Shown: positions 32,857 through 49,602 of the stretch, piece by piece
How positions within the stretch are numbered: position 1 is the first letter of the stretch
Layout of the letters: every line of letters begins with the position of its first letter
Assembly: GCA_009692555.1 (NCBI GenBank)
Contig: SHYY01000009.1
Location: 1 to 64,000 of the forward strand
Direction of reading: 5' to 3'
Origin: Myxococcales bacterium
GTDB taxonomy: Bacteria; Myxococcota_A; Polyangia; Palsa-1104; SHYY01
DNA: 64,000 nucleotides
The notes under the pieces: model-generated
What the model was told of the DNA's origin: nothing
Databases searched by the model: none
The model's input: the letters and a program-made list of their open reading frames with translations, nothing else
Translations under genes and position numbers: made by a program

Positions 32857-32926
32857 GGTCGTGCCGCCGCGCAGTCTATCACACGCTCGCCGGGCGTTGG
32901 TGGGGCGCGCCCAGGGCGCCCAGAAC

Positions 32927-33262
32927 GGGTGCTTAACAGCGGAGGGGGCCCTCTTGCTGGCTCTTGCTCGTCACGTAGTCGTAGTCGTCGTCGTAGTCGT
33001 AGTCGTCCCGTCCGCAGCGACGGCAATCGAACTTCCTCCCGCAAAAAATTCCTCCTGCCAACCGACCACCCTGGCCACAAAGGAGGATGCCCATGCTGGC
33101 CTACCAGAAGCTCGACGTCACAGGCCATGGAGTTGCTGACCCGCATCGTGGAGATGCTCGCGCGCATGTGCCGGAGAGGTGATCCCCCGCGCGAGAGTGC
33201 CCCTGAATCGACTACGACTACGACTACGGGAGCGGAGGGACCCCCTTCTCCGTTAAGCACCC
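32927..33262 (+). mobile_element. Hairpin-forming transposable element, copy A (internally deleted)
   Basis: Termini are GGGTGCTTAAC (32927-32937) and its exact complement GTTAAGCACCC (33252-33262). Inside the left end lies a run of GTAGTC hexamers (one degenerate); inside the right end, three GACTAC. Perfect 9-bp direct repeats GCCCAGAAC flank it (32918-32926 and 33263-33271), a target-site duplication. Compared with copy C, about 254 bases of the internal gene are missing, leaving only its first codons and its 3' end. It lies between the divergent Ala/Pro-rich and DUF1232 genes. Confidence 0.92.
33087..33182 (+). pseudogene. Deleted four-helix-bundle protein gene in copy A
   Basis: The remnant encodes MPMLAYQKLDV, then jumps after GACGTC to the gene's 3' end in a shifted frame and stops after 31 codons. 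The second ATG (33093) has an AGGAGG site at ideal spacing and starts the family-like MLAYQKLDV, showing where the ancestral start was. Confidence 0.8.
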
Positions 33263-33312
33263 GCCCAGAACATCCAACTTGAAAATTCCGCGTCGGACAG
33301 GTATGAGGAATC

Positions 33313-35139: not shown

Positions 35140-35304
35140 GATGGCGGGTATAGCAAGCGTCGCGCCTTCCTGGATACGTGAAAATTATGGTATTTCGCGA
35201 TTCGCCCCGCGGTAGCCGCGCTGCGGGGGGGAATCTGCGGAGCCGCCTTCGGAGGGTCAGTTAGGCCCAAGGGATGGCGGCTTGTCAACACGGCCCTCGA
35301 CTTC

Positions 35305-35514
35305 GGGTGCTTAACGGAGAAGGGGGTCCCTCCGCTCACGTAGTCGTAGTCGTAGTCGTAGCCTGGCAGGAGGAATTTGTTGCGGGAGGAACTTCGATTG
35401 CCGTTGCTGCGGACGGGACGACTACGACTACAACTACGACTACGACTACGACTACGTGACGAGCAAGAGCCAGCAAGAGGGCCTCAAGAGGGCCCCTTCC
35501 GCTGTTAAGCACCC
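35305..35514 (-). mobile_element. Hairpin-forming transposable element, copy B (gene-less)
   Basis: It shares both 11-bp termini (GGGTGCTTAAC at 35305-35315, complement at 35504-35514), the hexamer arrays (four GTAGTC on one side, six GACTAC on the other, one degenerate) and the leader segment, in reverse orientation to copies A and C. The protein gene is absent, the junction falling just before where its ribosome-binding site would be. Perfect 9-bp duplications CTCGACTTC flank it (35296-35304 and 35515-35523). It lies between the divergent small-ORF/murI pair and the HD gene; its right end may supply part of the HD gene's promoter. Confidence 0.93.
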
Positions 35515-35559
35515 CTCGACTTCTGCTATCGTCACCGCGCTGCGAAGGCCGCTTCCCGG

Positions 35560-48974: not shown

Positions 48975-49570
48975 GGGTGCTTAACAGCGGAGGGGGCCCT
49001 ATTGCTGGCTCTTGCTCGTCACGTAGTCGTAGTCGTAGTCGTAGTCGTAGTCGTCCCGTCCGCCGCGACGGCAATCGAACTTCCTCCCGCAACAAATTCC
49101 TCCTGCCAACCGACCCCCCTGGCCTCCAAGGAGGATGCCCCTGCTGGCCGACCAGAAGCTCGACGTCCATCGCCGCGCCATCGAGCTCCTCGCCCTTGCG
49201 TCGCAGATCGCGACGAGCGCCCCCAGGGGGAACTCGTTTCTCACTGATCAGCTCCAACGTGCGGCGCTCTCCATCCCCTGGAACATCGCCGAGGGAGCGG
49301 GCCGCTTCGGAGCGCCGGAGGGCGCCCGCTTCTACCGCATCGCCCGGGGCTCCGCGATGGAGTGCAAGGCGATCGGGGATGCCTTGGCGGTCCTGCAACT
49401 CGCCTTGGAAGACACTCGGCGACAGGCCATGGAGCTGCTGACCCGCATCCTGGAGATGCTCACGCGCATGTGCCGGAGAGGTGATCCCCCGCGCGAGAGT
49501 GCCCCTGAATCGACTACGACTACGACTACGACTACGTCAGCGGAGGGACCCCCTTCTCCGTCAAGCACCC
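48975..49570 (+). mobile_element. Hairpin-forming transposable element, copy C (full length, carries a gene)
   Basis: Left end GGGTGCTTAAC (48975-48985); right end matches its complement with one change (GTCAAGCACCC, 49560-49570). Five GTAGTC hexamers near the left pair with four GACTAC near the right. Between them lies a four-helix-bundle protein gene. No 9-bp target duplication is visible here (the flanking 9-mers differ), unlike copies A and B. It sits between the divergent deoC operon and the gene at 49612. In RNA, the ends would fold into one long stem with the gene in the loop, like 23S rRNA intervening sequences. Confidence 0.9.
49098..49135 (+). promoter_or_regulatory. Anti-Shine-Dalgarno hairpin before the element's gene
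   Basis: TCCTCCT (49098-49104) is exactly complementary to AGGAGGA (49129-49135), the ribosome-binding site that runs into the start ATG. A hairpin would hide the site. The same pair is present in copy A, so it is a conserved part of the element. Confidence 0.55.
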
Positions 49571-49602
49571 GGCGCGTCCGCGGCGCTCGCCATGGTGAGT
49601 AG
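49135..49602 (+). CDS. Four-helix-bundle protein of the 23S-intervening-sequence/Avd-like family
   Basis: The core (about residues 6-118) matches the four-helix bundle family: QKLDVHRRAIELLALA, TDQLQRAALSIPWNIAEGAG, RFYRIARGSAMECKAIGDAL and a last helix MELLTRILEMLTRMC. The family is named for ORFs in 23S rRNA intervening sequences and for Avd, the accessory protein of diversity-generating retroelements; its general role is unclear but it binds nucleic acids. The ancestral ATG seen in copy A (second codon pair, with ideal SD spacing) is CTG here (49141), leaving an ATG directly on the SD. There is no stop before the right hexamer array, so the protein gains a (Thr)n tail ending at 49602. Confidence 0.75.
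   Translation: MPLLADQKLDVHRRAIELLALASQIATSAPRGNSFLTDQLQRAALSIPWNIAEGAGRFGAPEGARFYRIARGSAMECKAIGDALAVLQLALEDTRRQAMELLTRILEMLTRMCRRGDPPRESAPESTTTTTTTTSAEGPPSPSSTRRVRGARHGE

Follow-up and report, generated by a model that had tools for sequence, protein, structure and literature searches.

The intervening sequences of 23S rRNA genes, for example in Coxiella and Leptospira, carry an S23p frame and are treated as selfish elements for which transposition has been proposed but is unproven (PMC4990558). In the passages of that article that cite Burgin 1990 and Ralph and McClelland 1993, transposition of rRNA intervening sequences and a need for the ORF in mobility are both proposed, not shown. Prokaryotic MITEs are short, gene-less and multicopy, have terminal inverted repeats and target-site duplications, and are moved in trans (PMC10969869). 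The gene-less copies described here share these MITE features; they differ in that the parent carries S23p and no transposase and in that a hexanucleotide array of variable make-up fills the inside. A tandem-repeat array within a MITE has a parallel in the minisatellite MITE of Porphyromonas gingivalis (PMC4596501), although repeat and host are different there and an S23p gene goes unmentioned in its abstract. Our search of the open-access literature, which most subscription journals fall outside, found no paper with an earlier description of such elements.

Three copies of the element, A, B and C, lie in the window (the whole 64,000-nucleotide stretch of DNA that was analysed). Their features and those of their flanks are as follows.

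35296 to 35304, no strand: 9-bp target-site duplication CTCGACTTC, left of copy B
35305 to 35514, minus strand: copy B, gene-less element, 210 bp, in the opposite orientation to A and C
35305 to 35329, plus strand: terminal inverted repeat at one end of copy B, 25 nt, 80% complementary to its partner
35336 to 35361, plus strand: (GTAGTC)n hexamer arm of the copy B hairpin, 26 nt, 100% complementary to its partner arm
35362 to 35363, no strand: 2-nt filler where the two sides of the deletion in copy B are joined, a junction unique in the genome
35434 to 35459, minus strand: complementary (GACTAC)n hexamer arm of copy B, pairing with 35336 to 35361
35474 to 35495, no strand: 11-bp near-perfect tandem duplication near one end, private to copy B
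35490 to 35514, minus strand: terminal inverted repeat at the other end of copy B, pairing with 35305 to 35329
35515 to 35523, no strand: 9-bp target-site duplication CTCGACTTC, right of copy B
32918 to 32926, no strand: target-site duplication GCCCAGAAC, left of copy A
32927 to 33262, plus strand: copy A, 336-bp element with the S23p gene cut to a remnant of about 31 codons; class-A junction, 8 sites
33263 to 33271, no strand: target-site duplication GCCCAGAAC, right of copy A
48975 to 49570, plus strand: copy C, full-length element, 596 bp; its 9-bp flanks do not match
49135 to 49602, plus strand: S23p reading frame of copy C, extending out past the right end (TIGR02436, PF05635)

The initial annotation had described a gene-less copy with intact ends and a perfect 9-bp duplication, and this was borne out: copy B has both ends, no coding sequence of the family, and CTCGACTTC repeated without mismatch over 9 bp on its two sides. 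Its ends are GGGTGCTTAAC and GTTAAGCACCC, with GGGTGCTTAAC read inward from each side. When one mismatch was allowed, the GGGTGCTTAAC pattern matched the window six times against 0.23 expected by chance, and these six matches are the two ends each of copies A, B and C. Copy B folds into a near-complete hairpin (DNA MFE -61.7 kcal/mol, z -9.2) that none of 200 shuffles equalled. A microRNA match (MIR898) over copy B was rejected, as it scored below the gathering score of that family and reflects the hexamer hairpin. With its terminal inverted repeats, target-site duplication, short length and lack of a transposase, copy B has the structural features of a MITE.

The gene missing from copy B, which the initial annotation had not recognised, is S23p (23S rRNA intervening-sequence protein), not a transposase, and full-length copies are therefore without a transposase too. 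In full-length copies such as copy C, AAGGAGG precedes a single reading frame, which in copy C matched TIGR02436 (E 2.6e-18) and PF05635 (E 9.1e-19). With the 23S rRNA intervening sequences, which are bordered by stem-forming complementary sequences (PMC4990558), the elements have in common S23p as sole gene and a hairpin form. The present copies differ from those sequences in lying between ordinary genes and in their GGGTGC ends, hexamer arms, 9-bp duplications and number, about 200. Copy B itself is not in a 23S or 16S rRNA gene, since an Asp/Glu racemase-like gene is its neighbor on one side and an HD-domain gene on the other; no rRNA match was found between 32500 and 36000 of the window or at 13 related S23p loci.

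The S23p family had 114 matches in this genome (G000) and none in 14 control genomes. It is present in 22 of 38 relatives, so that elements in several families of the class have kept the gene; on plasmids there were distant matches only. An array with a period of six was found within 500 bp of 10 of the 20 S23p loci examined, as compared to 14 of 400 random windows (controls taken from G000 itself). In another genome, G032, S23p genes occur as convergent pairs with a strong hairpin before each gene and no GGGTGC ends (L107-L113); these pairs are flanked by (CACTGG/CACTGA)n arrays, an arrangement seen at seven or more places.

The genome is a 6.1-Mb MAG, 80% complete and in 283 contigs, of which 1.69 Mb was read directly as stretches. 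A 22-base end pattern (3 mismatches or fewer) matched it 395 times, while the reversed control pattern gave 0 matches; there are therefore about 200 element copies. The first 1.49 Mb read directly contained 68 left and 69 right ends and only four others. We compared the flanks of 36 complete copies (39 flanked pairs minus three alternative pairings of the same copy), among which high-copy forms are under-sampled because many contigs end inside elements. A perfect 9-bp duplication was present in 16 of them and one with a single mismatch in 7 more. When flanks of different copies were paired at random, only 3 of 1482 pairs agreed as well. Copy L069 gives direct evidence of insertion with duplication, since it sits in a 59-bp repeat of which several uninterrupted paralogues hold TGCCGCCTG once, the exact sequence that is duplicated around this copy. 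Apparent empty sites for L002, L029 and L196 were discarded as self-matches to each copy's own flank. Chance, meaning a random hairpin beside a coincidental 9-mer, might be considered in a GC-rich and repetitive genome, yet it is refuted by the counts of ends, by the 23 of 36 duplications within one mismatch and by the empty sites, and we give it practically no weight.

Other repeats were seen in the same genome. The REP-like 59-bp repeat (AGTCCCC, ACCCAGGGGACGC, TGGTGCCGCCTGCGGCGGGTCG in that order), one copy of which is the L069 target, was seen at L184:11180-11238, at L150:10030-10145 and at some ten further places. A 73-bp miniature at L196:170-242 (G000:C56) has both ends, almost no interior and non-matching flanks. 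A divergent end, GGGTGCTTGACGGCGGAGGGGGCCC, is followed by GTGCAC hexamers from L144:10282 onwards (G000:C68) and possibly marks a second subfamily. Four more small dispersed hairpin repeat families, gene-less and of about 200 bp, were noted at L141:4035-4244 and L238:12831-13048, in L131/L171, in L152/L181 and in L169/L176.

To compare the gutted forms, deletions were mapped on the coordinates of copy C and counted in a partial, non-random sample of copies. Class A, to which copy A belongs, has the junction 193/448 and was found at 8 sites with unrelated flanks, and a perfect 9-bp duplication surrounds four of these copies; about 31 codons are left, and beyond the first 11 they are not S23p. 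Class D (junction 167/309, with the same filler in all) was found at 10 sites with different flanks and its frame is destroyed. No copy of either class keeps the S23p frame. Other deletions are private, including those of copy B, L002, L045, one copy in L143 and a 207-bp copy on C16 (139/520). In addition, a chimeric gene-less copy of 199 bp (L164:8777-8975, G000:C23) joins a standard right end to an unrelated left half with GTCGCC repeats, and is flanked by the perfect 9-bp duplication GCCGAGGAC.

A similar result was obtained in a sister species of the same genus, Myxococcales bacterium BP4.bin10 (G001, JAJXSP01), where the ends of S23p elements read GGGTGC[C/T]T and the hexamers are different. 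Three gene-less copies there have one junction in common, by which the S23p frame is lost from its start codon up to a point just short of the stop, and one of the three is flanked by a perfect 9-bp duplication, CCGCCCCGT. As this species has its own shared gene-excising junction, gutting followed by spread occurred independently in two species. Across 143 other genomes of the class, the exact ends were found beside S23p in G001 only; the remaining end matches were nearly all isolated, had 3 mismatches and were at control level. Five identical copies of GGGCGCTTGACAGCGCCGGGGG on contigs C40, C47, C148, C151 and C154 of genome G009 may be a further dispersed repeat whose ends are similar.

Since the class A, class D and sister-species junctions each recur at several sites, gutted forms are mobilised in trans and can be regarded as MITEs derived from an S23p element. 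S23p is dispensable in cis, because these forms spread. The initial annotation had supposed that ends alone may suffice for an enzyme acting in trans, which would make copy B a MITE-like satellite of a hairpin element; both ideas are supported by its gutted siblings, while for copy B itself neither movement nor dispersal was seen. Its junction, in element orientation (minus strand), reads CTCCTGCCA, then GG, then CTACGAC, just as the annotation gave it, and corresponds to about 152/540 with the 2-nt filler; the filler and the 11-bp tandem duplication are additions to what the annotation described. This junction had a single match in the whole genome at 3 mismatches or fewer, so the search that the annotation proposed gave no sign of movement in reduced form.

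In the other reading offered by the annotation, deletion after insertion, copy B would have arrived as an ordinary insertion of the full-length S23p element, lost its middle later by local deletion and never moved in its gutted form. The junction found once and the private marks that no other copy examined has in common (the 11-bp tandem duplication has no second copy in the sequence examined) favor this explanation, as do a filler without clear homology, which suits end joining, and the private deletions known in other copies. On the other hand, a gutted form that had made a single jump would be indistinguishable, the deleted forms of classes A and D demonstrably move in this genome, and all three of the shortest copies (copy B, the 207-bp copy on C16 and the 199-bp copy on C23) keep perfect 9-bp duplications, i.e., look young. 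We therefore regard such a local deletion as having close to an even chance, and whether copy B moved in gutted form or lost its gene after inserting is about evenly balanced.

What moves these elements was addressed by searching for DDE_Tnp_1, Mutator, Y1, rve and ISKra4 transposases. The first three families were absent from G000, a MAG that is 80% complete. One partial rve match was rejected as the mover, being without GGGTGC ends. In the 1.69 Mb read, no copy joined a transposase to the exact ends of the element; candidates for larger elements of 1.6-2.0 kb in contig C68 proved to be host genes between separate ends. In REPIN/RAYT systems, many chromosomal hairpins are moved by a gene located elsewhere. 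The present elements resemble these in their many hairpins and a mover encoded elsewhere; they differ in their 9-bp duplications and in that no Y1 transposase (Y1_Tnp, RAYT) was found in G000, G001 or G032.

The ISKra4 family was taken as a lead for its GGG-type ends and 9-bp duplications. There were five ISKra4 matches in G000 and one in G001, so each of the two genomes of the genus with S23p elements has this transposase. A complete gene lies in a 1726-bp element at L259:1282-3007 (G000:C276) with the ends GGGTGCAGATCC and GGGTGCGGCTCC, which are alike at 24 of 36 positions. Like the S23p elements this resident copy starts with GGGTGC at both ends; unlike them it carries a transposase, its ends differ from theirs beyond those six bases, and it has no 9-bp duplication of its own. 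In place of a short duplication, a diverged direct repeat some 130 bp long lies to each side of it. A DDE enzyme acting in trans is probably the mover, this being the best-supported mechanism, and the resident ISKra4-family transposase is the best candidate for it, if a tentative one with somewhat less than an even chance.

It could be speculated that S23p is itself a recombinase, in which case the intact copies of it would serve full-length and gutted elements alike in trans, with no DDE transposase. S23p is the only gene of the element, it has over 100 matches in a genome from which the commonest transposase families are absent, and its frame is kept in about 6 of the 11 readable full-length copies (copy C plus at least five others). 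However, this is improbable, as short staggered duplications are the usual product of DDE enzymes. In addition, S23p is a four-helix bundle of about 110 residues for which no catalytic activity is known (PMC4990558). Its closest solved structure is Xanthomonas XCC0516 (2gsc, E 1.8e-11), a pentamer of four-helix bundles (PMC4990558). Furthermore, in a comparison of six intact copies dN (0.049) exceeded dS (0.029), which leaves no visible sign of purifying selection on individual copies.

Another possibility is an RNA route, in which a resident reverse transcriptase copies the hairpin RNA with help from S23p, which would be related to the accessory protein Avd. Reverse transcriptases were found in all four S23p genomes tested as compared to 3 of 14 controls, and G000 has one like those of diversity-generating retroelements. 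This is very unlikely, however: that enzyme is not at the element, as it would be in a diversity-generating retroelement, and instead adjoins its own Avd-like gene on another contig, C218; a second match looks like a group II intron fragment; and terminal inverted repeats together with a duplication fixed at 9 bp are marks of DNA transposition. The cassette on C218 (L252, 1117-3552), which resembles a diversity-generating retroelement, encodes a reverse transcriptase with IGNLTSQ and YCDD motifs and an Avd-like four-helix frame, and has a C-type-lectin/FGE-like frame on the opposite strand.

We consider it likely that copy B, MITE-like and without a gene, arose by deletion from an S23p transposable element of about 600 bp. 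The parent consists of terminal inverted repeats starting with GGGTGC, inverted (GTAGTC)n/(GACTAC)n arms and S23p as its one gene, and the family inserts with 9-bp target duplications. Nothing encoded by the element is needed in cis, because copies with the gene removed or frame-shifted multiplied. A DDE transposase, for which the resident ISKra4 is the candidate, may act in trans on the GGGTGC ends. S23p would then be an accessory of full-length elements or a passenger in them; it may act in trans or at an RNA stage of the hairpin.

These elements bear on the spread of rRNA intervening sequences, whose origin and mobility, like the role of S23p, have been debated since about 1990. In the present elements, of which there are about 200 copies, S23p is the only gene and every sequence mark of DNA transposition is present. 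An attractive reading is that rRNA intervening sequences may be members of the same class. A broader proposal, which we hold to be rather doubtful, is that S23p genes mark a widespread class of small transposase-less DNA transposons in which S23p would help a foreign DDE transposase of the ISKra4 type to mobilise hairpin-armed elements; rRNA intervening sequences, with or without an S23p frame, would then be members that landed in rRNA, where the hairpin would allow RNase III to excise them. The many gene-less copies that still spread are natural knock-outs, with which it can be tested directly whether S23p is required, both in cis and in trans.
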